The notes below the pieces were generated by a model. That model had not been told where the DNA came from. It saw only the letters and a program-made list of their open reading frames with translations, and made no database searches. Both the position numbers and the translations under genes were made by a program. Shown in pieces: positions 3,463 through 40,100 of a stretch of 64,000 nucleotides of DNA. Position 1 is the first letter of the stretch. Each line of letters opens with the position of its first letter. This DNA comes from Lepus europaeus (taxonomy: Eukaryota; Chordata; Mammalia; Lagomorpha; Leporidae), in assembly GCF_033115175.1 (NCBI RefSeq), contig NC_084850.1:19561218-19625217 (forward strand). The letters run 5' to 3'.

Positions 3463-4692
3463 TGGTATCTCTTCTTTTTTTAACTTTTATTTAGTAAATA
3501 TAAATTTCCAAAGTACAGTTTATAGATTACAATGGCTTTTCCCCCCATAACTTCCCTCCCACCTGCACCCCTCCCATCTCCCGCTCTCTCTCCCATTCCA
3601 TTCACATTGATTCATTTTCTATTATCTTTATATACAGAAGATCAATTTAGTATATATTAAGTAAAGATTTCATCAGTTTGCACCAACACAGAACATAAAG
3701 TGTAAAATACTGTTTGAATACTAGTTATAGCATTAATTCACATTGGACAACAGATTAAGGACAGAGATCCTACATGAGGAGTAAGTACACAGTGACTCCT
3801 GTTGTTGACTTAACAATTTGACACTCTTGTTTATGGCGTCAGTAATCTCCCTAGGCTCTTGTCATGAGTTCCCAAGGCTATGGAAGCCTTTTGAGTTCGC
3901 CAACTTTGATCCTATTCCGACAGGGTCATAGTCAAAGTGGAAGTTCTCTCCTCCCTTCAGAGAAAGGTACCTCCTTCTTTGATGGCCTGTTCTTTCCACT
4001 GGGATCTCACTCGCAGAGATCTTTCATTTAGGTTTTTTGTTTGTTTGTTTGTGTTTTTTTTTTCCAGAGTGTCTTGGCTTTCCATGCCTACAATACTCTC
4101 ATGGGCTCTTCAGCCAGGTCCAGATGCCTGAAGGGCTGATTCTTAGGCCAGAGTGTTGTTTAGGACGTCTGCCATTCTATGAGTCTGCTGTGTATCCTGC
4201 TTCCCATGTTGGATCGTTCTCTCACTTTTAATTTTATGTGTTAGTATTAGCAGACACTAGTCTTGTTTATGTGATCCCTTTGACTCTTAGACCTATCAGT
4301 GTGATCAATTGTGAAGTGAAATTGATCACTTGGACTAGTGAGATGGCATTCGTACATGCCACCTTGATGGGATTGCATTGGAATTCCCTGGCACGTTTCT
4401 AACTCCACCCTTTGGGGTAAGTCTGATTGAGCATGTCCCAAATTGTGCATCTCCTCCCTCTCTTATTCCCACTCTTATATTTAACAGGGATCACTTTTCA
4501 GTTAAATTTAAACACCTAAGAATAATTGTGTGTTAATTACAGAGTTCAACCAATAGTATTAACTAGAACAAAAAAAATACTATAGTGGATAAAGTATTGC
4601 ATTGTACATCAACAGTCAGGACAAGAGCTGATCAAGTCACTGTTTCTCATAGTGTCCATTTCACTTCAACAGGTTTCCCCTTTGGTGCTCAG

Positions 4693-4965
4693 TTAGTTGT
4701 TGCCGATCAGGGAGAACATATGATATTTGTCCCTTTGGGACTGGCTTAATTCACTCAGCATGATGTTTTCCAGATTCCTCCATTTTGTTGCAAATGTCCG
4801 GATTTCATTGTTTTTGACTGCTGTATAGTATTCTATAGAGTACATGTCCCATAATTTCTTTATCCAGTCTACTGTTGATTGGAATTTGGGTTGATTCCAG
4901 GTCTTAGCTATTGTGAATTGAGCTGCAATAAACATTAATGTGCAGACAGCTTTTTTGTTTGCCAA
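4693..4965 (-). pseudogene. L1 ORF2 C-terminal fragment
   Basis: An open frame of 90 codons encodes the conserved C-terminal end of the L1 ORF2 protein. It includes WNQPK, a YYTAVKNNE block and the ending DKYHMFSLIGNN; near-identical copies lie at 23111-23383 and 37196-37468. ORF2 normally carries endonuclease, reverse transcriptase and a C-terminal region. Only the tail remains here, so no active product is expected. The frame ends at the natural ORF2 stop, with the 3'UTR beyond it. Confidence 0.9.
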
Positions 4966-5185
4966 TTTAATTTCCTTTGGGTAAATTCCAAGGAGTGGGA
5001 TGGCTGGGTTTTATGGTAGGGTTATATTCAGGTTTCTGAGGAATCTCCAGACTGACTTCCATAGGGGGCTATGCAACAGATAAAGGGTTAATAACCAAAA
5101 TCTACAAAGAGATCAAGAAACTCCACAACATCAAAACAAACAACCCACTTAAGAGATGGGCCAAGGACCTCAATAGACATTTTTC

Positions 5186-6704
5186 TTTTTTTTTCCTTAT
5201 TTTCATCTTTATTTCTTTTAACTTTTATTTAATGAATATAAATTTCCAAAGTAGAGCTTATGGATTACAATGGCTTCCTCCCCTCCATAACTTCCCTCCC
5301 ACCCACAACTCTCCCCTTTCCCGCTCCCTCTCCCCTTCCATTCACATCAAGATTCATTTTCAATTCTCTTTATATACAGAAGATCAGTTTAGTATATATT
5401 AAGTAAAGATTTCAACAGTTTGCAACCACACAGAAACACAAAGTGAAACATACTGTTCGAGTACTAGTTATAGCATTAAATCACAATGTATAGCACATTA
5501 AGGACAGAGATCCCACATGAGGAGCAAGTGCACAGTGACTCCTGTTGTTGACCCAACAAATTGACACTCTAGTTTATGGTGCCAGTAACCACCCTAGGCT
5601 CCCGTCATGAGTTGCCAAGTCTATGGGAGCCTTCTGAGTTCGCCGACTCTGATCATATTTAGACAAGGCCATAGTCAAAGTGGAAGTTCTCTCCTCCCTT
5701 CGGAGAAAGGCACCTCCCTCTTTTTTTTTTTAAGGGAAAGGGTTTATTGGGGAACACCCAACAGACTGGAAAGCTGATTCCAGCTAAGACTGGGAGAAAA
5801 GTCACTCATCTTTTGTAGGTAGAGGGGTTTGTCTATAGAGAAATTTTGAACAATTATACAGCATTAAGTGGGGAAGAGGACCATCAGTACACACAGGTTG
5901 GGAGTAGAGCCATTGGTGGTAGAGTAGAGGTTATGATTACAAAGGAATGAGGCCCAAGTGGGCTAGACAGGGTCTAGAACAAAGGACAGAGTCATTATTA
6001 GAGGAGCTAAGAAAGGTGCTGTCTAAGCTACAATTAAGTTTTCTGATTGAGAGGCAAATAGAACCTGATAGAAGGGGCTTGATAATAATCTGGTGGGCTT
6101 TAGGCCTTGTAAGTTAAGAGGCCCAGACCTATCTATCTCTTCACATGGGGTATATCCTAAGGGAGGTGTGAACCTCCTAGGGGAAGGCACTCTGTTGACT
6201 TTCATTACTTAGCTGGCCTGGGAGGAGAGCTGGCTAGGTAAAGGCAGGTGGCATCTCTAACAAGAAATTTACAGTTCTTCCTGCAATGTTGCTGACCCTA
6301 CTTGGCCGTCCCCTCAGCTGCAGTGGTCACTTTGGAAGTTGGGCTGAGTGAAGGGCTTTTCAGCTTAGAGCCAATAAGATCTGTGGCTCTGACCTGGGCA
6401 TCCTTCAACTCCAGGGCAGGTCTATTTCCAGTGATCCAACTCTTGGCAGAGCTGCCAGGGCTCTTCACAAGCTGACTTCTACTGAAGCCCAGGCTTACCA
6501 CTTTGAAAGCCACTGCAGTGGACTGGCCTGTTGGGTCTCCTTGTGAGCAGATCACTTACAGAACAGCCATTAATAGGCCTGCCACCCATTGCTTCTGATG
6601 CCTAGCTTTGTTTTCCTCCTAGTTTTTGTTAAAGCAGACCAGAGGATGCAAGTCAAGGGAGTGCCCAAGTCCCATCTCTAATCTTTGGTGGCCTAAACTA
6701 CAAA
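5186..6704 (-). mobile_element. Composite retroelement, copy 1: retroviral-derived segment joined to L1 3'UTR
   Basis: This insertion lies inside the L1 at 3477-6923 and has a 16-bp duplication, tcaatagacatttttc (5170-5185 and 6705-6720). Read on the minus strand, it begins at 6704 with sequence homologous to 31118-31966 of the large composite element, and this runs to about 5852. A 120-bp tail (5851-5732) follows, ending in an AATAAA signal (5743-5748) and an A-run (5721-5731). Then comes an ordinary L1 3'UTR end (5720-5186). The retroviral part shows a degraded nucleocapsid/protease-like region. It is 5'-truncated relative to copy 2. Because it has its own duplication and tail, it moved as a unit by L1-type reverse transcription. 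Confidence 0.88.
5732..6704 (-). pseudogene. Endogenous-retrovirus-derived segment (degraded gag-pro-like), copy 1
   Basis: It is homologous in order and sequence to 31118-31966. Two open pieces survive on the minus strand (6298-6555 and 6023-6205), and they correspond to the pieces at 31312-31527 and 31620-31802. The segment ends with an AATAAA hexamer and an A-run, like the polyadenylated end of a retroviral transcript. It has multiple stops and frame changes and cannot encode a working product. Assignment to a class I (gammaretrovirus-like) source rests on the knuckle-like and protease-like patterns described for copy 2. It is an inference from motifs, not from alignment. Confidence 0.6.
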
Positions 6705-6998
6705 TCAATAGACATTTTTCAAAAAAGGAAACCCAAATGGCCAACAGACACATGAAAAAAAGTTCAAGATCACTAGCAATCAGGGAAATGCAAGTCAAAA
6801 CCACAATGAGGTTTCACCTCACCCCGGTGAGAATGGCTCACATTCAGAAATCTACCAACAACAGATGCTGGCGAGAATGTGGGGAAAAAGGGACATTAAC
6901 TCACTGTTGGTGGGAATGCAAACTGGTATCTCTTCTTAAAAAGCACTAATCCTACTGGACCAGGACTCAAACTTACGACTCATTAAAACTTCATTTTT

Positions 6999-7334
6999 AA
7001 AAGATTTATTTATTTATTTGAAAGCCAGAGTTACACAGAGAGAGGAGAGGCAGAGAGAGAGAGAGAGGGAGAGAGGTCTTCCATCTGCTGGTTACTGCCC
7101 AGATGACCCCAATGGCTGGAGCTGTGCCAACCCAAAGCCAGGAGCCTGTAGCCTCTTCCAGGTCCCCCACGTGGGTGCATGGGCCCAAGGATTTGGGACA
7201 TCCTCTGCTGCTTTTCCAGGCCATAGTTGAGAGCTGGATCATATGTGGAGCAGCAGGGTCTCGAGCCAGCTCCCACATGGGATGCTGGTGCTTCAGGCCA
7301 GGGCGTTAACCTGCTATGCCACAGCACCGCCCCC
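6999..7334 (-). mobile_element. CSINE (rabbit C repeat)
   Basis: A minus-strand SINE: the A/T-rich tail and GA-rich tract are at the left, the tRNA-like head (complement of gcggtgctgtggcatagc) at the right near 7310-7330. The duplication aaaacttcattttt flanks it at 6985-6998 and 7335-7348. Confidence 0.95.
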
Positions 7335-7454
7335 AAAACTTCATTTTTTTTTTTACTTAATGCTTTTTCTCCAAATACAATTCTATTGGAAGTTAGAACA
7401 TCAGTTCATTAAATTGGGATAGGCACAATGCGGTCCATTGTATAAATTCTTGTG

Positions 7455-7620: not shown

Positions 7621-7974
7621 GTCTAGTTAGAGGGGACAGCCAGGGGGGAACTTGCCTTGAATATCCTAGCATATGGAGTGTCTTTTTTATTTTATGCATG
7701 TATTTATTTTGAGTTCTTTTCCAGGATCTGCTGGGCATAGAGAAGGATAGCTAAAGCTGCTCCCCCGCATCCCACATCCCTCATGCCACCCCTTGATTCA
7801 AATAATTTGTGAAGATAAAATAAAATAATATCTGTAAGGTGCTTACTACAGTGCCTGGCATGTGGTGAGCAGATCCTTAAAATCCAGATACACAATTTAG
7901 TCCACAAGTCTGGACATAAGAAACCACAATCCGAGTGTTGGGCTAGATTTACACTGACAGTTTGTCTTCACTTT

Positions 7975-16799: not shown

Positions 16800-17420
16800 A
16801 AAGAATTTTGGCATGGCATAACTCACCTAAACACAGTAAAAAGGCAAATGAATTGGGGCAAAAGAGGCATATTGTCAGCTAAAACGTCAATTTCCATTCA
16901 CCAATGAGTAAGAAAAAGATCAGCAAGCCTTTTACAAAAAAAGAGGTGAGGAAGATCACTTCATTCATAGAAGAGCACATGTAAGTGGCTATTGGCCTTT
17001 AAAAAGCAGTTCAGCTTCAGTAATAACTATAGAAATGCAAATTTAAAATCTACCAGGGTACCATTTTCACCTGTAACACTGACAAAGTTTAATGACATAC
17101 TTTATTGGCAATAGCACAGGAAAACATGCATTCTCATACACTGGTGGGAGAAGTATGGATTTTCTCTTTGTGAAAAAACACATGCCTTTTGACCTACCAG
17201 TTCTGCTACTAGTAATTTATTTTGCAAATGTACTTGTTTATGTGTGAAATGATTTTTTGTCATTTCAGTATTTATTGTAAAAGTAAAATTTTGACAACAC
17301 TAATTGTAAACTTGTAGGTAACAAGCCAAATAAATGGCATGTAATCCATATGAAGCTATAAAATGAATAAGGCAGTGGTTTACATACCAGAGACAGAAAA
17401 AAAAGGTATTATTTTTAATG
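16800..17420 (+). mobile_element. Ancient L1 fragment (ORF2 end to 3'UTR)
   Basis: Old ORF2 C-terminal wording is in order: tatagaaatgcaaatttaaaatc, then accattttcacctgtaacac, then catacactggtgggag, then cttttgacctaccagttc. All frames are broken. Confidence 0.7.
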
Positions 17421-20367: not shown

Positions 20368-20692
20368 GTGATGGGACAGCGCTGTGGCACAGTAGGTTAA
20401 TCCTCTGCCAGTGGCATCAGCATCCCGTATGAGCTCTGGTTCCAGTCCCAGCTGCTCCTCTTCCAATCCAGCTCTGTGCTATGGCCCGGGAAAGCAGTAA
20501 AAGATGACCCAAGTCCTGGGGCCCTTGCACCCACGTGGGAAACCTGGAAGAAACTCCTGGCACATGGCTCAGATTGGCTCAGCTCTGGCTGTTGCAGCCA
20601 TTTGGGGAGTAAACCAACAGGTGGAAGATCTTTCTCTCTGTCTCTCCCTCTCACTGTATGTAACTCTACCTCTCAAATAAAATCTTTTTAAA
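20368..20692 (+). mobile_element. CSINE
   Basis: The plus-strand tRNA-like head (cgctgtggcacagtaggtt) is followed by ggttccagtcccagctgctc, ccatttggggagtaaacc, a CT-rich tract and an A-rich tail. The tail runs directly into the 3' end of the next L1. Confidence 0.92.
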
Positions 20693-21653
20693 AAACTTTT
20701 ATTTAATGAACATAAATTTCCAAAGTACAGCTTAAGGATTACAATGGCTCCCCCCCCCCAATAACTACCCTCCCACCCGCAACCCTCCCCTTTCCCGCTC
20801 CCTCTCCCCTTCCATTCACATCAAGATTCATTTTCAATTCTCTTTATATACAGAGATCAGTTTAGTATATATTAAGTAAAGATTTCAACAGTTTGCACCC
20901 ACATAGCAACACAAAGTGAAAAATACCGTTGGAGTACTAGTTAAAGCATTAAACCACAATGTACAGCACATTAAGGACAGAGATCCTATATGATATTTTT
21001 AAAAAATTGATTAATTTTCTATGCAATGTCCAATTTAAAAACCAAGTTTTTTTTCATTTTCAATTATCTTTATATACTGAAGAGCGATTCAGTATGTACT
21101 AAGTAAAGATTTCATCAGTTTGCACCCACACAGAAATACAAAGTGTAAAAATACTGTTTCAGTACTAGTTATAGCATCACTTCACATTGGATAACACATT
21201 AAGGACAGATCCCACATGAGACGTAAGTACACAGAGACTCCTGTTGTTGACTTAACAATTTGACACTCTTGTTTATGGTGTCTTTAATCTCCCTAGGCTC
21301 TAGTCATGAATTTGCAAGGCTATGGAAGCCTTTTGCATTCACCGACTTCGATCCTATTCTGACAGGGTAATAGTCAAAGTGGAAGTTCTCTCCTCCCTTC
21401 AGAGAAAGGTACCTCCTTCTTTGATGGCCCTGTTCTTTCCACTGGGATCTCACTCGCAGAGATCTTTCATTTATGTGTTTTTTTTCCATGGTGTCTTGGC
21501 TTTCCACTCCTGAAATACTCTCATGGGCTCTTCAGCCAGATCCGAATGCCTTAAGGGCTGATTCTGAGGCCAGAGTGCTGTTTAGGACATCTGCCATTCT
21601 ATGAGTCTGTTGTGTATCCCGCTTCCCATGTTGGATCATTCTCTCCCTTTTTG
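20693..21653 (-). mobile_element. Young L1 3' end, tandem-duplicated 3'UTR form
   Basis: Minus-strand L1 3'UTR of about 960 bp, with the pyrimidine tract (complement of the purine tract) at 20745-20815. Two copies of the AT-rich unit lie at about 20830-20960 and 21055-21175. It abuts a CSINE on the left and another L1 on the right, so target duplications cannot be defined. Confidence 0.9.
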
Positions 21654-23621
21654 ATTTTTTTTCATTTATTAAACTTTTATTTAATGAATATAAATTTCCA
21701 AAGTACAGCTTATGGATTACAATGGCTTACCCCCTCCCATAACTTCCCTCCCACCCACAACCCTCCCCTTTCCCGCTCCCTCTCCCCTTCCATTCACATC
21801 AAGATTCATTTTCAATTCTCTTTATATACAGAAGATCAGTTTAGTATATATTAAGTAAAGATTTCAACAGTTTGCCCCATATAGCAACACAAAGTGAAAA
21901 ATACTGTTGAAGTATTACTTATAGCATTAAATAACAGTGTACAGCACATTAAAGACAGAGATCCTACATAATATTTTTTTAAAAATTAATTAATTTTCTA
22001 TGCCATTTCCAATTTAACACCAGGTTTTTTTCCATTTCCAATTATCTTTATATACAGAAGATCGATTCAGTATGTACTAAGAAAAGATTTCATCAGTTTG
22101 CACCCACACAGAAACACAAAGTATAAAAATACTGTTTCAGTACTAGTTATAGCATCACTGCACATTAGACAACACATTAAGGATAGATCCCACATGAGAT
22201 GTAAGTACACAGTGACTCCTGCTGCTGACTTAACAATTTGACACTCTTATTATGGCGTCAGTAATCTCCCTAGGCTCTAGTCATGAGTTGCCAAGGCTAT
22301 GGGAGCCTTTAGAGTTCGCTGACTTTGATCTTATTCTGACAGGGTAATAGTCAAAGTGGAAGTTCTCTCCTCCCTTCAGAGAAAGGTACCTCCTTCTTTG
22401 ATGGCCCCGTTCTTTCCACTGGGATCTCACTCACAGAGATCTTTCATTTAGGTCTTCTTCTTCTTCTTTTTTTTCTTTTCTATGGTATCTTGGCTTTCCA
22501 TGCCTACAATACTCTCATGGGCTCTTCAGCCAGATCCGAATGCCTTAAGGGCTGATTCTGAGGCCAGAGTGTTGTTTAGGACATCTGCCATTCTATGAGT
22601 CTGCTGTGTATCCCACTTCCCATGTTGGATACTTCTCTCCCTTTTTGATTCTATCAGTTAGTATTAGCAGACACTTGTATTGTTTGTGTGATCCCTTTGA
22701 CACTTAGACCTATCAGAGTGATCAACTGTGAAGTGAAATTGATCACTTGGACTAGTGAGGTGGCATTGGTACATGCCACCTTGATGGGATTGTATTGGAA
22801 TCCCCTGGCACGTTTCTAACTCCACCCTTTGGGGTAAGTCTGATTGAGCATGTCCCAAATTGTGCATCTCCTCCCTCTCTTTTTCCCACTCTTTGTGTAA
22901 CAGGGATCACTTTTCGGTTAAAATTTAAACAGCTAAGAATATTTGTGCGTTAATTACAGAGCTCAACCACTAGTACTAAAACAAGAACAAAAAAATACTA
23001 AAAAGGATAAAGTATTACATTGTACATCAACAGTCAGGACAAGGGCTGATCAAGTCATTGTTTCTCATGGTGTCCATTTCACTTCAACAGGTTTCCCCTT
23101 TGGTGCTCAGTTAGTTGTCGCCGATCAGGGAAAACAAATGATATTTGTCTCTTTGGGACTGGCTTATTTCACTCAGCATGATGTTTTCCAGATTCCTCCA
23201 TCTAGTTGCAAATGACCGGGTTCCATTGTTTTTGACTGCTGTATAGTATTCTATAGAGTACATGTCCCATAATTTCTTTTTCCAGTCTACTGTTGATGGG
23301 CATTTGGGTTGGTTCCAGGTCTTAGCTATTGTGAATTGAGCTGCAATAAACATTAATGTGCAGATGGCTTTTTTGTTTGCCAAATTAATTTCCTTTGTGT
23401 AAATTCCAAGGAATGGGATGGCTGGGTTGTACGGTAGGGTTATATTCAGGTTTCTGAGGAATCTCCAGACTGACTTCCATAGTGGCTTAACCAGTTTGCA
23501 TTCCCACCAACAGTGGATTAGTGTCCCTTTTCCCCCACATCCTCACCAGGATCTATTGTTGGTAGATTTCTGAATGTGAGCCATTCTAACAGGGTGAGGT
23601 GAAACCTCATTGTAGTTTTGA
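21654..23621 (-). mobile_element. Young L1, ORF2 C-terminus plus duplicated-form 3'UTR
   Basis: The poly-T at 21654 starts a second minus-strand L1. Its 3'UTR has the duplicated unit (about 21795-21920 and 22035-22150). ORF2 C-terminal sequence follows up to 23621, where it meets a plus-strand L1 head to head, with 'gac' shared at the junction. Confidence 0.92.
23111..23383 (-). pseudogene. L1 ORF2 C-terminal fragment
   Basis: An open frame of 90 codons almost identical to those at 4693-4965 and 37196-37468, ending DKYHLFSLIGDN at the normal ORF2 stop. It lacks endonuclease and reverse transcriptase domains, so it is a relic. Confidence 0.9.
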
Positions 23622-24405
23622 CCTAAATGAAAGATCTCTGCATGTGAAATCCCAGTGGAAAGAACCAGTCCATCAAAGAAGGAGGTACTTTTCTCTGAAG
23701 TATGGAGAGAACTTCCACTTTGACTATTACCCTATCGGAATAAGATCAAAGTCGGCGAACCCTAAAGGCTTCCATAGCCTTGGCAACTCATGACTAGAGC
23801 CTAGGGAGATTACTGACGCCATAAACGAGAGTGTCAAATTGTTGAATCAACAACAGGAGTCACTGTGTACTTATGTCTCATGTGGGATTTGTCCTTAATG
23901 TGTTTTCCAATGTGAAGTGATGCTATAACTAGTACTGAAACAGTATTTTTACACTTTGTGTTTCTGTGTGGGTGCAAACTGATGAAATCTTTACTTAGCA
24001 TATACTGAATCGATCTTTTGTATATAAAGATAATTGAAAATGAAAAAAAACTTGGTTTTTAAATTGGAAATTGCATACAAAAGTAATCAATTTTTAAAAA
24101 ATATCATGTAGGATCTCTGTCCTTAATGTGCTGTACATTGTGGTTTAATGCTTTAACTAGTACTCCAACAGTATTTTTCACTTTGTGTTGCTATGTGGGT
24201 GCAAACTGTTGAAATCTTTACTTAATATATACTAAACTGATCTCTGTATATAAAGAGAATTGAAAATGAATCTTGATGTGAATGGAAGGGGAGAGGGAGC
24301 GGGAAAGGGGAGGGTTGCGGGTGGGAGGGAAGTTATGGCGGGGTAAGCCATTGTAATCCATAAGCTGTACTTTGGAAATTTATATTCATTAAAAAAAAGC
24401 TTAAA
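23622..24405 (+). mobile_element. Young L1 3' end, duplicated form, head to head with the previous L1
   Basis: It begins at ctaaatgaaagatctctgc within the L1 3'UTR, carries two AT-rich units (about 23925-24035 and 24145-24260) and the purine tract (24285-24335), and ends in an A-rich tail. No target duplication is apparent at either side. Confidence 0.9.
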
Positions 24406-24518
24406 AAAATTGAAAGAAGCACATATTCCCTCAATAAATAGCAAATAACTAATATGTAACTAAAACTCTAATATGTGCTGGCACAAAGAATTAAAAGATA
24501 CTTAAGATACTAATAGTG

Positions 24519-24812
24519 ATCTCTGTCCTTAATGTGCTGTACATTTTGATTTAATGCTATAACTAGAACTCAAACAGTATGTTTCACTTTGTGTTTCTAT
24601 ATGGGTGCAAACTGTTGAAATCTTTATACTAAATTGATCTTCTGTATATAAAGAGAATTGAAAATGAATCTTGATGCAAATGGAAGGGGAGAGGGAGCGG
24701 GAGAGGGGAGGGTTGCGGGTGGGAGGGAAGTTATGGGAGGGGGAAGCCATTGTAATCCATAAGCTGTACACTGGAAATTTATATTCATTAAATAAAAGTA
24801 AAAAATATATAT
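24519..24812 (+). mobile_element. Young L1 3' end, short
   Basis: A 294-bp insertion of the last part of the L1 3'UTR with purine tract and tail. A 12-bp duplication, atactaatagtg, lies at 24507-24518 and 24813-24824. Confidence 0.93.
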
Positions 24813-27087: not shown

Positions 27088-27373
27088 TACTCTGGGAGTA
27101 GGCACTTGGCCTAGCAGTTAAGACACTTGCATTGTCACACATAGGAGTGCTTGGATTTGATTCCTGGCTCCAGCTTTCTGATAATGCAGACCCTGAGACA
27201 TAGCAGTGATGGCTCAAGTACTTGAGACCCTGCTCTCCATGTGGGAGATCAAAATTGCGCCCCTGGCTCCCAACTTAGGCCCAGCCCAGCTCTAGCTATT
27301 ATGGCCACTCAGAGAATGAACCAGCAGAGAGCAGCTCTATCCATCTGTCTGTCTCTCTACCTCTCTAAAAATA
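27088..27373 (+). mobile_element. CSINE, diverged
   Basis: An older plus-strand SINE: head tagcagttaagacacttgc, middle cccagctctagctattatgg, and a CT-rich tract at 27340-27368. The composite element at 27387 inserted into its A/T-rich tail. Confidence 0.8.
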
Positions 27374-27386
27374 TTTTTTGAAATCT

Positions 27387-28298
27387 GAAGATGGCGGAAT
27401 AGGAAGGGAGCACACTATTAGTCCGGGCGAGAGACAGTTTAATAAAAGTGGGGATACTGCAGGGTCAAGGAAGAGTAGGGGAAGAAACAGCAGAGGAAAC
27501 TCTTCCGGAACTAGTGGTTCACAGTGGACCTGCGTGGAGAGCGTGGGAGCCCAAGTTCGGGACACCAGCGGCAGAATCAACACACCAGCGCTGGAACGCG
27601 AGGTGAGCCGAACCTCCATAGCCCGAGACACCAGCGGGCAAGCGGAAAGGGGAGACTAGAGGGAACGAGGCTTGAAACTCCGTGGGGAAAAGTTCACCAG
27701 GCTAACTAGAAGAGAGAGAGGAAAAAAAAAAGTGACCGATACGGACACGAGTTTCTCTCTCTCTGCTCACCCCTCAAAGGCGAGCAAGACAAAGAGCAGG
27801 CGCCATTTTGGACATACGTCATAAGCAGGGCGACCTCAGGTCTGCACCGGCCCTGAGCCTAGCAGAAAAACCTGACTCTGGGGGGGAGGGGTGAAATAAC
27901 AGGAGATTAGGATCTAACTTGGCAACCCAGTGGGAGACTGCAGGAGAATTGGAGCCCACACTGAGGGCAGCAGAGATTCCCTGTGTGGTCCTTGGGAAAG
28001 AGCTTCCAATCTCTGGCTCCTGTGGGTATATCATTTGCCTGCTAACTACCTCCAATTACGTTCAGCTGTGCGGAATTACTTCCCTTTTGAATAAAAAAAA
28101 GAAAGAAAGAGAGATTTACCACGCCTAACCTGGGAGTGTCATCTTTGACATACCCTCAACCCTGAGGAACCAAACACAGCTCTCAGGCCACACTCATCTC
28201 AAGCCTCTAAGGCTCCACTGAAAGCAGACAGTACACTTAATATAGAGCCATAGTGTAACAAGAAAAACACCACAGTGAAGAAACCAAATAGCTCCAAC
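27387..28298 (+). promoter_or_regulatory. L1 5'UTR (internal promoter) of the composite element
   Basis: It starts directly after the target duplication, so it is probably full length (912 bp). aagatggcgg at 27388-27397 matches the YY1-type site found at the start of other mammalian L1s, which positions transcription initiation. A reverse gccatttt core lies at 27802-27809. The region is GC-richer than its flanks and CpG-containing, as expected for an internal RNA polymerase II promoter. Activity today is unknown. Confidence 0.75.
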
Positions 28299-29322
28299 AT
28301 GCCAAACAACAAACGCAAAAACCAAGCTAACAAGAACAAGGAAGAAACTATGACGCCCCCAAATGAAAAAGACACCCCAATTCAAGATTATGAAGATGAT
28401 GAGATCGAAGAAATGCAAGAAGCGGATCTCAAAAAATTGATAAGAACATTAAGAAGTTCTCAGAAACAAATTCTTGAACTACAGAAATCCTTAATGGACA
28501 AGATAGAAAATCTCTCTCATGAAAATGAAATATTAAGGAGGAATCAAAATGAAATGAAACAACTAGTAGAACAAGAAACTGTGATAGTGACGAAAAATCA
28601 TAATGAAATGAAGAATTCAATAGCTCAAATGACAAACACATTAGAGAGCCTTAAAAACAGAATGGGTGAAGCAGAAGAGAGAATATCACTTAGAAGACAG
28701 AGAACAAGAAAGAAAACAGGCAAACCAAAGAAAAGAAGAGGAAATTAGAAATCTAAAAAATATTGTCAGGAATCTACAGGATACTATTAAAAAACCGAAC
28801 ATTCGGGTTCTAAGAGTTCCTGAAGGCATGGAGAGGGAGAAAGGATTAGAAGGCATTTTCAGTGAGATACTAGCAGAAAATTTCCCAGGTTTGGAGAAGG
28901 ACAGAGGCATCTTAGTACAGGAAGCTTATAGAACCCCTAATAAACATGACCAAAAGAGATCCTCACCACGACATGTTGTAATCAAACTCACCACAGTGAA
29001 ACATAAAGAAAAGATCCTAAAAGGTGCAAGAGAGAAACGTCGGATCACTCTTAGAGGATCTCCAATTAGACTCACAGCAGACTTCTCATCAGAAACCCTA
29101 CAAGCTAGAAGGGAATGGCGAGACATAGCCCAGGCACTAAGAGAGAAAAACTGCCAGCCCAGAATATTATATCCTGCAAAGCTCTCATTTGTGAATGAAG
29201 GTGAAATTAAGACTTTTCATAGCAAACAGAAACTGAAAGAATTTGTTGCCACTCATCCTGCCCTGCAAAAGATGCTTAAAGATGTGTTACACACAGAAAC
29301 ACAGAAACATGGTCACCAATAG
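28299..29322 (+). pseudogene. L1 ORF1 protein (RNA-binding chaperone), one frameshift
   Basis: ORF1p is a trimeric RNA-binding protein that coats L1 RNA in cytoplasmic particles. The chosen start, MPNNKRKNQ, follows a 912-bp 5'UTR. Residues 1-45 are charged and disordered. A heptad-rich coiled coil follows to about residue 125 (ILELQKSLMDKIENLSHENE). A single frame change near 28686-28692 separates this from the second half (about 28690-29322). The second half holds the RRM-like domain (IRVLRVPEG to NFPGL) and the C-terminal domain (CQPRILYPAKLSF, FATHP-like tail). Length is about 340 residues, normal for L1. With the frameshift, only the coiled-coil half would be made. Confidence 0.9.
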
Positions 29323-29374
29323 GAAAGAAGGTAAAGGAAGGAAACCTCACAGCAAAAGATCACAGGAAGCTCAA

Positions 29375-31117
29375 TTTCTCTTTGACATAGAATTAAACTC
29401 TGATGCTCTGTTAAAGCAATGTGTTAAAGGAATCTATTATGTTCTCTTGATGTCTGTTAAATTCTAATTGTTCAAAAACAGCTGCATTTTTATTAAGAGC
29501 TATGGGTTATTTAAATATGTGCTTTGTTCAAAAATTTGAATAATCACCTTGTAACAATGATCAAATTTGGTCTATGTTATGCCATGATTTTAAGGAATCT
29601 TATTTCAACCAGATATTTTGGATTTTGAGCCTTCTTGGCATTCTTGACAGGCATTCAAAAAATCAAAGTTTCAAACAATCTGGTCTCTAAAATTTCCAGT
29701 AAATCCTGGACTTTGGTTTTTCCAGTTTGGGCCCAACTGAAAAAATCGAAGGACCTATGTCTCTCATCTTATAGAGACACCAACTAATCAGGCTATTTGG
29801 ATTATATTAGAAGGACTGTCAAGATGTGATGTGGTACCAAACTTTAAGTTTCTATAATGGAAAATGCTATTAATACAAATGTTTGAGAATTAAAAAGTCT
29901 AAGGATCTTGTGTTACTAGACATGATAGTTATCTTAATGAGAAAGCCCCAGAGGCCTAAAGGGTGAAATACTTGTAAAACCCTACATGTGCTTTCAAAAC
30001 TACTGTGAAGTAAGCAAGTGCCTCTTGTTGGTTGATGAGTTTATAATTTTAAACATGGCGACTTAAAGTCTTTTGTCATCCACAGTTATATATGATCTGC
30101 TGCTCATAAAACTAAAGCGTTGTTGCTTCTGTGTTTAGCTGTCCTCCTATAGGTTCCTATGGACTTTTTCCAGCCACTTCTATTGTATTCAGTACTTTGG
30201 GATGGCTCTGTAAACAGATGAAGCCAATAATGTATTAACAGTACCAACTGAGAGAAAGTATGGTTAACTGAGGTTACTAAAAACAAAAAAACAATTCAAA
30301 TCAATTGGCAATCTACAAAAAGAGTTAGATTTTAAAAGCTATTATTAAAATTACTATATTGGTCTATTATGCTATGTTATATGTGTGTACATATTGTATG
30401 TCCACATGGGGAAATTTCATTAAGAGTTTTATTTTAAATGGCTTATAGATAAGATTGTCCATAAATTTAAGCTGCTAAAATCAATCAAAGATACATTTTA
30501 ATTTGTGTGACCTGAATCTGTGTATCATATGTTTTATACTTGTTGGTAGAAAAAAACTAAAAACATTTTATATGGTTGTGCTTAAGTTTACTGGTTAAAC
30601 AAACTACACCATGTTAGATATTTAAGAGGTGTTTTCAAATACATGATTCTTAAAATTTATAGAAGGCATTGGACCTTCTGGTAAATGTTTTCTTAAGTTG
30701 TTATCTAATGGTTGAAACTGTTTGCTAAGTATTCATGTGATATTGCTATTGTCAGCAAGCGATCTAGGACTTGCTCCCTCATTTCTCTATTCTAAGCCCA
30801 ACTTGTTCTTTCATTTCTCTATTCTCTTCAAGGTAGGAAACTAATTCTATTAGGAAGGAATCTGTAGGACGCACAATTTAATCTTTAGACCTTATAAAAG
30901 AGATGGCTAACATTTTTCTGTAATAGCATAGCCAAAATAAGAACTTAAATAATAATCTCATAGCTAAATTCACTTCGCCATCAGCGAAGTATACAGTAAG
31001 TAGAAAAAACCTCCCTTTCAGACCAAAGGGAAAGAAAGTTTTAAAGTGAGAATATAACTTTCCTCATGGGCATTGTCTACCTTAGAAAAACTACTACAGA
31101 ACATGCCTGTGACTATA
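29375..31117 (+). other. Cargo part 1: unidentified AT-rich sequence within the composite
   Basis: The sequence leaves L1 exactly after ggaagctcaa (29365-29374), where the intact L1 at 35975-41595 continues into the ORF2 leader. No long open frame and no L1, SINE or obvious retroviral pattern is seen over 1.7 kb. Composition is AT-rich. It is not present in copy 1, whose 5' end lies just downstream. It could be retroviral non-coding or LTR-like sequence, or a captured genomic or transcript segment. Confidence 0.7.
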
Positions 31118-32028
31118 GACTTGTAGTTCAGGCCACCGAAGATTAGAGATGGGACACGGGCACTCCCTTGACTTGCATCCTCTGGTCTGCTTTAACACAA
31201 ACCAGGAGGATAAGAAAGCTAGGCATCAGAAGCAATGGGTGACAGGCCTATTAATGGCTGATCTGTACAATAATCTGCCCTCAAGGAGACCCAACAGGCC
31301 AGTCCACTGCAGTGGCTTTCAATGTGGTAAGCCTGGGCTTCAGCAGAAGTCAGGTTGTGAAGAGCCCTGGCAGCTCTGCCAAGAGTTGGATCACTGGAAA
31401 TGGACCTGCCCTGGAGTCGAAGGATGCCCAGGTCAGAGCCACAGATCTTATTGGCTCTAAGCTGAAAAGCCCTTCACTCAGCCCAACTTCCAAAGTGACC
31501 ACTGCAGCTGAGGGGACGGCCAAGTAGGGTCAGCAACATTGCAGGAAGAACTGTAAATTTCTTGTTAGAGATGCCACCTGCCTTTACCTAGCCAGCTCTC
31601 CTCCCAGGCCAGCCAAGTAATGAAAGTCAACAGAGTGCCTTCCCCTAGGAGGTTCACACCTCCCTTAGGATATACCCCATGTGAAGAGATAGATAGGTCT
31701 GGGCCTCTTAACTTACAAGGCCTAAAGCTCACCAGATTATTATCAAGCCCCTTCTATCAGGTTCTATTTGCCTCTCAATCAGAAAAGTTAACTGTAGCTT
31801 AGACAGCACCTTTCTTAGCTCCTCTAATAATGACTCTGTCCTTTGTTCTAGACCCTGTCTAACGTACTTGGGCCTCATTCCTGTGTAATCATAACCTCTA
31901 CCACCAATGGCTCTACTCCCAACCTGTGTGTACTGATGGTCCTCTTCCCCACTTAATGCTGTGTAATTGTTCAGACCTGGTTAATGGCACTCTTAGGATC
32001 ATTGGTTACTATCCTCAACCTGTCTTTT
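31118..32028 (+). pseudogene. Cargo part 2: degraded class I retroviral gag-pro-like segment
   Basis: 31149-31460 encodes a zinc-knuckle-like pair. The second knuckle keeps exact C-x2-C-x4-H-x4-C spacing with Trp in place of the first Cys (Trp 31368, Cys 31377, His 31392, Cys 31407). The first keeps QCGKPG but has lost its His. About 31529-31588, in another frame, resembles the start of a retroviral aspartic protease, but the catalytic triplet position (31568-31576) reads Glu-Met-Pro, so it would be dead. A further open piece follows at 31620-31802. Two-knuckle nucleocapsids suit class I endogenous retroviruses. Homology to copy 1 stops at about 31966; the last 62 bp are unique to this copy. 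Confidence 0.6.
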
Positions 32029-32490
32029 ATGACCTTGTCTAAATATGATCAGAGTCGGCAAACTTGGAAGGCTTCCATAGCCTTGGCAACTCATGACGAC
32101 AGCCTAGGGTGGTTACTGGCGCCATAAACTAGAGTGTCAATTTGTTGTGTCAACAACAGGAGTCACTCTGCACTAGCTCCTCATGTGGGATCTCTGTCCT
32201 TAATGTGCTGTACATTGTGATTTAATGCTATAACTAGTACTCAAACAGTATTTTTCACTTTGTGTTTCTATGTGGGTGCAAACTGTTGAAATCTTTATAC
32301 TAAATTGATCTTCTGTATATAAAGAGAATTGAAAATGAATCTTGATGTGAATGGAAGAGGAGAGGGAGCGGGAGAGGGGAGGGTTGTGGGTGGGAGGAAA
32401 GTTATGGGAGGGGGAAGCCATTGTAATCCATAAGCTGTACACTGGAAATTTATATTCATTAAATAAATGTTAAAAAAACATTAAATTTTT
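32029..32490 (+). mobile_element. L1 3'UTR end and tail of the composite element
   Basis: It starts at atgaccttgtctaaatatg, an internal point of the L1 3'UTR, so the 5' half of that UTR is missing. It has the single-unit form, the purine tract (32350-32415), and the conserved end followed by a short A-rich tail. This end is what L1 ORF2 protein would need for priming. Confidence 0.92.
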
Positions 32491-32503
32491 TTTTTTGAAA
32501 TCT

Positions 32504-33513
32504 ATTAATGTTTTTGATAGTTTCTTTTTAAATGAAGCAAGGGTAATGGTAGGAACCTAATCTTCAAAGTCACAACAGAAAATTTGGGCTGACAGTTTAG
32601 AATTCAAGGAGTCATATCTACATGATGACCTCTGGGCCTTTCCAAAGGAATCACAAAAGGGATTTAGACATTAATGGTCTCCCAGGATACTAGGATTAAA
32701 ATTTGGGTATAAGTAATAGATCCCAAAGAATTTCTGTGGCTGGGGTACAGAGGATCATAGAGAGTTCGTCCTCAGAAAGAAGAGAGATGAAAAATACTCT
32801 TGTGCCTTGGATCTTGAGTTGAAAGTCATCAAATAGTGCATTTGTCATCCAGAGTGTTGCTCTCTAATCCAGATCATTGAAGCACTGGTTTCTCCAACAG
32901 AGTGTACTATTAAAACAGAGTTAATAGCAAAACTGTGCAAGATTCAGAGTCAAATTTTTTGATTATCACCCAAATTTATGAATTTCCTAAAGTTTTGTGG
33001 GACTTCAGCAAACAGTGTTTACAACTCTGAATACATGTGACTGTTTCAAATAAACCAAAAGTGTTATGAAGTGTTTAGGTATTTATGACATGTATTTAAA
33101 ATAACTCAAATAAAACCAAAGGCTGAATAACTATCCAATAATTTAGAATATTCCATTCTATCAAGCATTGTACAAATGTTTTACCAATCAGTTGCTGCAG
33201 AATAGATCCACTTGGCTGGTTAGATGTTAGGATTTTTTGCTGTTAGTGGAATGTGTAGGGAGAGAGTTAATCAGGTTTAAATCTAAACTAGGGTTCAGAC
33301 ATGTCTCAGTTTTCCTTGATCCCTTTGAGATCTCCAATCCACTAAGTTAGCACTTTTTTCAATTCTTCAACTTCTTCCCACCCTCACTTCCTGGTTCCAA
33401 GGATCATTATTATAATCACTTCTTTGAAACTCCCTGGTGTGTGTGTGTGTGTGTGTGTATCTTTTTCTGCTCACATCCCAGAGCATTCACTTGGCAAAAA
33501 TGCAACTCTGATT
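32504..33513. other. Unassigned stretch
   Basis: No gene is seen. It ends with a (GT)n run at 33437-33458. A phrase like that at 16020-16035 (aagttttgtgggactt, about 32991) hints at an old hAT-type relic. Confidence 0.45.
33437..33458. repeat. (GT)n microsatellite
   Basis: Eleven GT units. Confidence 0.95.
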
Positions 33514-37195: not shown

Positions 37196-40100
37196 TTAGT
37201 TGTCACCGATCAGCGAGAATATATGATATTTTTCTCTTTGGGACTGGCTTATTTCACTCAGCATGATGTTTTCCAGATTCCTCCATTTTGTTGCAAATGA
37301 CCGGATTTCATTGTTTTTGACTGCTGTATAGTATTCTATAGAGTACATGCCCCATAATTTCTTTTTCCAGTCTACTGTTGATGGGCATTTAGGTTGATTC
37401 CAGGTCTTAGCTATTGTGAATTGAGCTGCAATAAACATTAATGTGCAGATGGCTTTTTTGTTTTCCAATTTAATTTCCTTTGGGTAAATTCCAAGGAATG
37501 GGATGGCTGGGTTGTACGGTAGGGTTATATTCAGGTTTCCGAGGAATCTCCAGACTGACTTCCATAGTGGCTTAACCAGTTTGCATTCCCACCAACAGTG
37601 GATTAGTGTCCCTTTTTCCCCACATCCTCACCAGCATCTGTTGTTGGCAGATTTCTGAATGTGAGCCATACTAACCGGGGTGAGGTGAAACCTCATTGTG
37701 GTTTTTGAGTTGCAGTTCCCTGATTGCTAGTGATCTTGAACATTTTTTCATGTGTCTGTTGGCCATTTGGATTTGCTCTTTTCAAAAATGTCTATTGATT
37801 TCCTTGGCCCATCTCTTAAGTGTGTTGTTTGTTTTCATGTTGTGGAGTTTCTTGATCTCTTTGTAGATTCTGGTTATTAATCCTTTATCAGTTGCATAGT
37901 TTGTGAATATTTTTTCCCATTCTGTCAGTTGCCTTTTCACTTTCCTGACTGTTTCTTTTGCAGTACAGAAACTTCTCAATTTGATGCAATCCCAATAGTT
38001 AATTTTGGCTTTGACTGCCTGTGCTTCCAGGGTCTTTTCTAAGAAGTCTTTGCTGGTGCCAATACCTTGCACGTTTTCTCCAATGTTCTCTAATAATTTG
38101 ATGGTGTCGGGTAGTAGATTTAGGTCTTTAATCCATGTTGAGTGGATTTTTGTGTAAGGTGAAAGGTAGCGGTCTTGCTTCCTGGTTCTAGTCCCGGTCA
38201 GTGCACCAATCCTGTCCCGGTTGCGCCTCTTTCAGGCCAGCTCTCTGCTGTGGCCAGGGAGTGCAGTGGAGGATGGCCCAAGTCCTTGGACCCTGCACCC
38301 CATGGGAGATCAGGAGAAGCACCTGGTTCCTGCCATTGGATAAGCGCGGTGCGCCAGCCGCAGCGTGCCTACCGCAGTGGCCATTGGAGGGTGAACCAAC
38401 GGCAAAAGGAAGACCTTTCTCTCTGTCTCTCTCTCTCTCTCACTGTCCACTCTGCCTGTCGAAAAAAAAAAAAAGGAAATCCAGTTTTCCTAGCACCATT
38501 TATTGAATAGACTGTCCTTGCTCTAGGATTGGTTTTGGATCCTTGATCAAATATAAGTTGGCTGTAGATGTTTGGATTGATTTCTGGTGTTTCTATTCTG
38601 TTCCATTGGTCTATCCATCTGTTTCTGTACCAGGACCATGCTGTTTTGATTACTGCCTTGTAGTATGTCCTGAAATCTGGTATTGTGATGCCTCCGGTTT
38701 TGTTTTTGTTGTACAAGATTGCTTTAGCTATTCGGGTTCTCCTGCATCTCCATATGAATTTCAGCATCATTTTTTTTCAGATCTGAGAAGAATGTCTTTG
38801 GTATTTTGATTGGTATCGCATTGAATCTATAAATTGCTTTTGGGAGAATGGACATTTTGATGATATTGATTCTTCCAATTCATGAGCATGGAAGATTTTT
38901 CCATTTTTTGGTATTCTATTTCTTTCTTTAAGATTTTGTAATTTTCATCGTAGAGATCTTTAACGTCCTTGGTTAAGTTTATTCCAAGGTATTTGATTGT
39001 TTTTGTAGCTATTGTGAATGGGATTGATCTTAGAAGTTCTACCTCAGCCGTGGCATTGCCTGCGTATACAAAGGCTACTGATTTTTGTGCATTGATTTTA
39101 TATCCTGCTACTTTGCCAAAATCTTCTATGAGTTCCTATAGTCTCTTAGTAGAGTTCTTTGGATCCCCTAAATAAAGAATCATATCGTCTGCAAAGAGGG
39201 AGAGTTTGACTTCTTCCTTCCCAATTTGTATCCCTTTAATTTCTTTTTCTTGCCTGATGGCTCTGGCTAAAACTTCCAGAACTATGTTGAAGAGCAGTGG
39301 TGAGAGTGGGCATCCCTGTCTGGTACCAGATCTCAGTGGAAATGTTTCCAACTTTTCCCATTCAATAGGATGTTGGCCATGGGTTTTTCATATATTGCTT
39401 TGATTGTATTGAGCAATGTTCCTTCTATACCCAATTTGCTTAGAGTTTTCATCTTGAAAGGGTGTTGTATTTTATCAAATGCTTTCTGTGCATCTATTGA
39501 GAGAATCATATGGTTTTTCTTCTGCAGTCTGTTAATGTGGTGTATCACGTTGATTGTTTTGCGAATGTTGAACCATCCCTGCATACCAGGGATAAATCCC
39601 ACTTGGTCTGGGTGGATGATCTTTCTGATGTGTTGTTGCATTCTATTGTCCAGAATTCTATTGAGGAGTTTTGCATCTATGTTCATCAGGGATATTGGTC
39701 TGTAATTCTCTTTCAATGCTGCATCTTTTGTGGCTTAGGAATTAAGGTGATGCTGGCTTCATAGAAAGAATTTGGGAGGATTCCCTCTTTTTCAATTGCC
39801 CTGAATAGTTTGAGAAGAATTGGAGTTAGTTCTTCTCTAAATGTCTGGTAGAATTCAGCAGTGAATCCATCTGGTCCTGGGCTTTTCTTTGTTGGGAGGG
39901 CCTTTATTACTGTTTCAATTTCTGTGTCAGTTATGGGTCTGTTTAGGTTTTCTATGTCTTCCTGGTTCAATTTAGTTAGGTTGTATGTGTCCAAGAATCT
40001 CTCCATTTCTGATGGATTTCCCTGTTTGCTGGCATACAACTCTTTGTAGTAATTTCTGATGATTCTTTTTATTTCTGTGGTATCTGTTGTTACATTTCCT

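Follow-up and report, generated by a model that had tools for sequence, protein, structure and literature searches.

Composite L1 elements with ORF1 and a non-L1 cargo in the genome of Lepus europaeus

Introduction

A 64,000-nucleotide stretch of Lepus europaeus DNA (contig NC_084850.1, positions 19,561,218 to 19,625,217; hereafter the window) contains an element in which an L1 5'UTR and ORF1 are followed by sequence that is not L1 and then by an L1 3'UTR. This anatomy raises the question of whether the chimera is an accident of one locus or a mobile unit in its own right and, if it is mobile, what its ORF1 and its cargo contribute. An earlier note on the same DNA had read it as a half-L1 with retrovirus-related cargo that is copied with the help of L1 ORF2 protein. 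The evidence assembled herein makes it likely that this main element belongs to a large L1-derived family that is nonautonomous and has been active recently.

Anatomy of the element

The features of the main element, and of a second copy in the window (copy 2), are collected in Table 1. The L1 5'UTR and ORF1 continue to position 29374 and the sequence then leaves L1, as the earlier note had stated: a window L1 on the minus strand (41588-41311) matches 29096-29374 at 90.7% and diverges thereafter. The exit does lie upstream of ORF2, but about 29 bp before its ATG rather than the 40 bp originally given. Likewise, the return to L1 falls inside the 3'UTR, though at 32028 and not at 32029; matches to copy 2 and to eight further L1 3' ends in the window begin at 32028-32030, and shorter 3'UTR matches in the window begin later, at 32110-32383. 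ORF1, which had been described as running normally, is present with its Pfam domains but is frameshifted in the main element into pieces of 157 and 218 aa; most intact copies encode 345 aa. At the 5' end, about 6-15 first bases (GGAGAGGCGGCAAG-like), which precede the match in most other copies, are missing. A single duplication was found around the whole chimera, exactly as proposed.

Table 1. Coordinates, strand and supporting observations for the main element and copy 2 (window positions).
Feature	Position	Strand	Remarks
Main element, left target-site duplication ttttttgaaatct	27374..27386	.	sequence and repeat family D1; with mismatches could reach 27367
Main element, L1 5'UTR	27387..28298	+	
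Main element, L1 ORF1	28299..29335	+	Pfam Transposase_22 RBD 2e-25, Tnp_22_dsRBD 5.5e-27
5' junction L1/cargo (29374/29375)	29365..29398	+	34-mer, genome-wide matches
Non-L1 cargo, about 2.65 kb	29375..32027	+	no recognised domain
Cargo part deleted with differing breakpoints in delA, delB and delC	29437..30355	+	
Longest cargo ORF piece, 113 codons stop-to-stop	31119..31457	+	no database support
3' junction cargo/L1 3'UTR (32027/32028)	32019..32052	+	34-mer, genome-wide matches
L1 3'UTR, purine-rich tract, A-rich end	32028..32478	+	matches to the window's other L1 3' ends
Main element, right target-site duplication, copy of ttttttgaaatct	32491..32503	.	sequence and repeat family D1
Copy 2, left duplication GAAAAATGTCTATTGA, 16 bp	6705..6720	-	
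Copy 2, 5'-truncated cargo	5724..6704	-	end = AATAAACCCTTTCCCTT + A-run
Copy 2, L1 3'UTR and tail	5186..5723	-	
Copy 2, right duplication, 16 bp	5170..5185	-	

Genome-wide occurrence and mobility

Junction patterns of 34 nucleotides, allowed up to three mismatches, were found at 7,936 places (5' junction) and 17,293 places (3' junction) in the window's genome, and reversed-pattern controls gave 0 in both cases. Because the junctions recur to this extent, the composite anatomy is not a product of chance; searched for across the genome, they proved not to be unique to this locus. With comparable patterns, the 7,936 composite 5' junctions stand against 2,170 ordinary ORF1-ORF2 boundary sites. The whole element was spanned in 17 of the 20 regions fetched first, with both common ends present in 16, and 24 of 28 fetched regions contain the 3' junction, which is missing from the stretch fetched in the remaining four. 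Own duplications were recognized in 14 of the 17 full-span copies, the best duplication beating all 30 random draws from the same locus, and 11 of these 14 begin with A.

The earlier view that the composite moves as one unit is thus borne out by the same junctions at thousands of places and a single flanking duplication, and the family that it anticipated, with many full-length copies sharing the junctions and differing in their duplications, was recovered. The L1 5'UTR, ORF1, 2.65-kb cargo and L1 3'UTR have been copied together many times, and the copies carry L1-type target sites, duplications and A-tails. Because ORF2 is absent and target starts are A-rich, the composite probably depends on L1 ORF2p in trans. 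In the mechanism proposed, the composite RNA would be transcribed from the internal L1 promoter and translated into its own ORF1p, which would coat that RNA in cis. Ordinary L1 would supply ORF2p, which would recognize the 3'UTR/poly(A) common to composite and L1, and the RNA would be reverse transcribed at the target.

A second architecture and the origin of the composite

The shared cargo of copy 2 is 95.7% alike to that of the main element, and its 3'UTR joint lies about 50 bases upstream of the main element's joining point. The empty site is clean: when its flanks are joined, they align with an ordinary L1 (37582-37899) at 93% across 318 bases. In the window's genome, a second architecture, the copy-2 form, was found in 430-476 copies, in the order of about 52 bp of ORF2, cargo ending in AATAAA and an A-run, and L1 3'UTR. 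Its joints were counted 476 times (internal), 87 times (exact A-run/3'UTR) and 25 times (ORF2 start/cargo), with controls at 0; in the one copy read, the approximately 52 bp of ORF2 are followed by cargo from 30252.

Because this second architecture keeps AATAAA and an A-run at the cargo/3'UTR joint, the composite probably has its origin in an L1 reverse-transcription event that linked a polyadenylated RNA to L1, and both architectures may descend from an L1 that had acquired such an RNA. ORF2 would have been lost afterwards by template jumps, probably twice and with different breakpoints. The complete history remains tentative: an autonomous L1 would once have held polyadenylated foreign RNA in its 3'UTR, and deletion of ORF2 on more than one occasion would have left two ORF1-bearing, ORF2-less forms, of which the larger has its ORF1 under selection and is more numerous than the matching ordinary ORF1-ORF2 boundary, a repeated half-L1 origin.

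It is rather doubtful that the two forms were instead assembled independently, by separate template switches that involved L1 RNA and one donor RNA common to both, and with no common cargo-bearing L1. Joints that differ on both sides would suit such an origin (29374/29375 versus a joint from about 52 bp into ORF2 to cargo position 30252 at the 5' side; 32027/32028 versus AATAAA/A-run/GAGGGAGG at the 3' side), but the similarity of the shared cargo and the placement of copy 2 inside the spread of the main family (with weak support) speak against it. Furthermore, a single longer ancestor with deletions accounts for both forms, and microhomology deletions are recurrent in the family.

Coding state of ORF1 and selection

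ORF1 is open for at least 338 aa in 19 of 37 copies and not open in the other 18. These 37 related sequences, 36 of them on one contig, were drawn from an exact-match list, which favours young copies. Private ORF1 changes (56 synonymous, 133 nonsynonymous, 8 stop) were found to match a neutral simulation (26.8/69.0/4.2%), whereas shared changes (39, 44 and 2, respectively) do not; the two classes differ with a Fisher p of 0.0059, or 0.0058 without CpG. When seven rows were added, the counts became 47/60/2 for shared versus 65/161/9 for private changes (p 0.0063). Nei-Gojobori ratios gave no separation, at 0.25-0.50 between groups and 0.25-0.59 within groups. Since amino-acid changes are depleted in shared and not in private variants, source copies seem to have needed a coding ORF1, held under selection; exchange with ordinary L1 could mimic this signal.

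A passive passenger, in which the L1-like 3' end alone moves the composite RNA and ORF1 protein plays no part, as with SVA or processed pseudogenes, is unlikely. Such transport would agree with the 18 copies in which a long ORF1 is lacking, and with the excess of 3' over 5' junctions (17,293 vs 7,936), as given by 5' truncation of L1 products. It fits poorly with inherited ORF1 changes that are depleted for amino-acid change next to neutral-like private ones, and with an ORF1 that is open in all seven copies of the deletion group delA; in one of them (L041) the usual stop is missing and the frame extends to 362 aa.

Comparison with known systems

In the passages available, HAL1 (half-L1) elements keep L1 ORF1, lack ORF2, have an A-tail and target-site duplications, and need the L1 enzyme (PMC5322556); several independent origins are described (PMC5753468), and mammalian HAL1 elements are cited to Bao and Jurka 2010 (PMC4161310, PMC5753468, PMC5322556, PMC4859970). 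The composite shares this anatomy, which the earlier note had recognized with respect to ORF1 and ORF2: ORF1 is kept with RBD and dsRBD domains and is coding in about half of the copies (19/37), L1 ends before the ORF2 ATG and resumes only in the 3'UTR, and A-tails, own duplications (14/17) and junctions at 7,936 and 17,293 places accompany a multicopy state. By analogy, the composite would work like HAL1. It is unlike HAL1 as described in those passages in that 2.65 kb of non-L1 sequence stand in place of ORF2 and that a second architecture is built on the same cargo.

SVA and LAVA elements are not known to contain L1 ORF1. The composite differs from them in its ORF1, whose domains are detected by Pfam and which is apparently under selection, and in its native L1 5' end. 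Common to the composite and these hominoid elements, as the available text presents them, are a composite structure, a nonautonomous state and mobilization by L1 in trans, presumed here for the composite (PMC7353768). L1 chimeras with other RNAs likewise join L1 sequence to another RNA; in the available passages of Law and Burns 2026 (PMC13174262), these are human-lineage insertions whose partner lies on the 5' side of L1. In the composite, by contrast, the partner is internal and has founded a family with 17,293 3' junctions; the A-run at the second-architecture joint fits RNA-level joining.

In the part available, a table of PMC3183009 names HAL1 families for guinea pig and marmoset. Its rabbit row gives three LTR families and does not list a HAL1 among the youngest; one of the reviewers comments there that the annotation of rabbit is low. 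The composite family is not described in the passages covered on HAL1/half-L1, rabbit L1 and composite retrotransposons, a scope without most subscription papers and repeat libraries; possibly, it is already in the latter. If the proposed history is true, this young family of many copies is a natural experiment that asks why L1 parasites retain ORF1 with ORF2 supplied elsewhere and how much unrelated RNA one L1 transcript can hold. It would also show that thousands of copies can stem from an L1/RNA chimera, their nested deletion subfamilies being open to dating and testing.

The cargo

Recurrent, precise gaps were found in the cargo, in 7, 4 and 3 of 30 loci. Three groups are distinguished by their breakpoints: delA (29542/30095), delB (29436/30277) and delC (29628/30356). 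The seven delA rows form one clade with 0.75% diversity within the group, delC also forms one clade, and delB (three rows) does not. These recurrent deletions mark subfamilies. Because groups without 0.55-0.84 kb of cargo went on amplifying, the cargo appears to be a passenger or spacer, not a required gene. It is very improbable that the gaps are introns spliced out and not inherited deletions: their precision and recurrence and the scatter of delB would suit splicing, but the borders are without GT-AG, short microhomology is seen at the joints by reading, and delA and delC each form one clade. The idea that cargo unlike the window's L1s, breaking up the L1 anatomy, entered an ordinary L1 as a later separate insertion at the main-element locus only is refuted by the same junctions at 7,936 and 17,293 places, the single duplication around the whole and the own duplications of 14 of 17 copies.

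The description of the cargo as retrovirus-related found no support, as no gag, pro, pol or env domain was found by Pfam, PDB and protein-collection searches. None of five cargo ORF pieces matched Pfam at E values up to 10; one piece searched against PDB had an unrelated protein as its best match (E 1.6), one piece had no homologue in the protein collection, and Rfam returned nothing usable. In a search of the window's genome for a parent of the cargo, the cargo start preceded by non-L1 context had 0 exact matches and the cargo end with non-L1 downstream context had 11, which look like members of the family that lack one T. Of parents with exactly matching sequence, each pattern would detect between about a third and two fifths. 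In addition, a cargo 24-mer had 0 exact matches in a viral-contig collection, and the 5' junction had 0 in a further genome-contig collection.

A joint into a CTCCCTGAG stretch within one copy (L059) was considered as a family feature; it has 1 match only and is therefore taken as a local change, outside the family structure. By eye only, a degenerate CCHC-like Cys/His pattern can be seen in the longest cargo ORF piece.

The main element and its layout

The composite is a genuine, large and young ORF1-only family. Within the window, its proposed layout of ORF1, non-L1 sequence and L1 3'UTR was borne out: the match with an ordinary L1 at 41588-41311 (minus strand) stops at 29374, L1 similarity resumes at 32028-32030 for eight other L1 3' ends and for copy 2 (a second cargo copy), shorter L1 3' matches start at 32110-32383, and a 13-base duplication, ttttttgaaatct, flanks the element on either side. 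As the earlier note had stated, L1 is left shortly before ORF2, although the distance to the ORF2 ATG, as placed in that ordinary L1, is about 29 bases and not 40. Joined-flank comparison within the window yielded no empty site for the main element. L1 RBD-like and dsRBD-like domains were detected by Pfam in the downstream ORF1 piece, and ORF1 is frameshifted in the window copy.

Principal features of the composite element
Feature	Position	Strand	Basis
L1 5'UTR + ORF1	27387 to 29374	+	sequence matches
Cargo	29375 to 32027		

This anatomy shares the testable features of half-L1 (HAL1) elements, families of which, according to the relevant passages of the sources, occur in several mammals (PMC5753468; PMC5322556; names in PMC3183009). 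No description of the composite family was found in the literature searched, and as far as could be seen it is a new variant on HAL1-type anatomy; being so abundant, it may already be catalogued. Elsewhere in the window, several L1 3' ends in both orientations are crowded together at 20681-24805, and in some of them 3'UTR matches to 32028-32339 and 32181-32478 adjoin, as if a 3'UTR variant carried an internal duplication.

Genome-wide abundance and mobility

Across the assembly that holds the window (649 contigs, 2.93 Gb in all), 34-mers with at most three mismatches located the 5' junction at 7,936 places and the 3' junction at 17,293, and reversed-pattern controls for both gave no match; the many copies with the same junctions expected of a family are thus present. 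For the L1 at 41311, a 30-mer across its ordinary ORF1-ORF2 boundary (at most three mismatches) hits 2,170 places; older, diverged L1s escape this pattern, so that the ratio to the composite junctions is indicative only. Each of the 30 loci listed by the first junction search matches the main element on either side of the junction; being exact matches from the opening portion of a single contig, they are biased toward young copies.

Element-spanning copies were recovered in 17 of 20 fetched regions, 16 of them with both common ends; the match of L036 ends at 32414. In 14 of the 17 copies the target-site duplication outscores every one of 30 random draws from that locus, the exceptions being L041, L042 and L036 (the last tested with an estimated end), and a wider search chose a different, shorter duplication for L035. 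The first base is A in 11 of the 14, and such an A-start is characteristic of L1 endonuclease sites. Full-length copies with their own duplications agree with the earlier proposal that the composite moves as a unit. Furthermore, the same 3' junction occurs in 24 of 28 regions (the 20 and eight further), and is absent from L037, L048, L052 and L057 within the stretch fetched. In L032, a second composite copy with another internal gap (29576/30028) begins about 150 bases past the end of the first. In L054 and L007 the 5' part is inverted and the halves lie head-to-head, as expected from twin priming.

A second architecture around the same cargo

Copy 2 matches cargo 31110-31973 from 6714 to 5847 (minus strand) at 95.7% in self-BLAST and then continues into L1 3'UTR. 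It has its own 16-base duplication, its joined flanks match an uninterrupted ordinary L1 at 37582-37899 (93% over 318 bases), and by these sequence comparisons it is a separate 5'-truncated insertion. Its cargo extends to AATAAACCCTTTCCCTT and an A-run before L1, and its L1 joint lies about 50 bases more upstream in the 3'UTR than that of the main element. The L1 stretch in which copy 2 sits (5170-7400) shows homology opposite in direction to the adjoining L1 at 3472-5067, and resembles a 5'-inverted L1 of the kind left by twin priming.

In the window's assembly, the copy-2 tail was found at 430 places, its internal joint at 476 and the exact A-run/L1 3'UTR joint, with varying A-run length, at 87 (controls 0 for each). 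One copy of this form, L059 (contig C6; 1.1 kb read, its 5' end outside the stretch), starts as ordinary L1, remains so past the end of ORF1 to about 52 bases into ORF2, and passes from there into cargo at the 30252 equivalent. This ORF2-start/cargo joint occurs at 25 places. By eye, among the matches listed, at least 13 of the 25 lie 1.5-2.9 kb upstream of a copy-2 tail, internal or A-run joint on the same strand; a further one has such a joint close by on the other strand, and for 11 no neighbour is listed. The same cargo thus sits between two different L1 breakpoint pairs. At L059:959-1101, cargo at the 31114 equivalent runs into other sequence; this joint has one genome match and is apparently a local change.

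The AATAAA and A-run where the cargo meets L1 are consistent with a polyadenylated RNA having been attached to L1 in the course of reverse transcription. The 5' breakpoints differ, in keeping with later template jumps that would have taken out ORF2, events of the sort that still strip pieces from the cargo. That the main and copy-2 forms arose as two separate assemblies is a possible, less likely alternative; in the cargo tree, with weak support, copy 2 falls inside the main family's spread, not outside it.

The earlier description of the cargo as retrovirus-related gained no support from database searches: Pfam gave no match for five cargo ORF pieces, PDB no meaningful match for one piece, the protein collection no homologue for the L043 counterpart of that piece, and Rfam no match in 27300-32600. 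A Cys/His-rich piece at 31119-31457 resembles, to the eye only, a decayed retroviral nucleocapsid. Two context patterns of limited sensitivity found no parent locus.

Probable ORF1 selection, cargo deletions and age

Of 37 rows (the window copy and 36 of 38 fetched genome copies, without L007 and L054, the latter not containing the whole piece), 19 keep an open ORF of 338 aa or more, among them all seven delA copies (one of three groups, delA to delC, with different cargo deletions); in L041 and L058 it exceeds 345 aa. Changes private to one copy number 56 synonymous, 133 nonsynonymous and 8 stop, with 26.8/69.0/4.2% expected from a neutral simulation based on the cargo substitution spectrum, whereas those common to at least two copies number 39/44/2 (Fisher p 0.0059; 0.0058 without CpG). 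With seven added rows, the values are 47/60/2 shared versus 65/161/9 private (p 0.0063). The contrast is absent from simple Nei-Gojobori ratios (0.25-0.50 between group sequences, 0.25-0.59 within). On a simple reading of the difference between shared and private changes, insertions decay neutrally and ORF1 seems to have been necessary to source copies; the contrast could also owe something to exchange with ordinary L1 or to row non-independence.

Among the first 30 loci, the delA gap (29542/30095) occurs in seven, delC (29628/30356) in four and delB (29436/30277) in three; short microhomology marks the joints, which lack GT-AG borders. In a 28-row tree (two of the 30 candidates were dropped for not covering the whole piece), delA (seven rows, support 95) and delC (four rows, support 94) each form a single clade and delB (three rows) does not; a smaller tree, built from the cargo of 19 rows, requires two changes for delA. 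In the ORF1 region, pairs among 30 rows differ by 3.2% on average; within delA the mean is 0.75%, and the minimum is 0.18%. The corresponding mean for cargo 31110-31970 is 2.3% over 18 rows. At mammalian substitution rates, and in a sample that leans young, this means that the sampled copies are a few million years old and delA activity is very recent.
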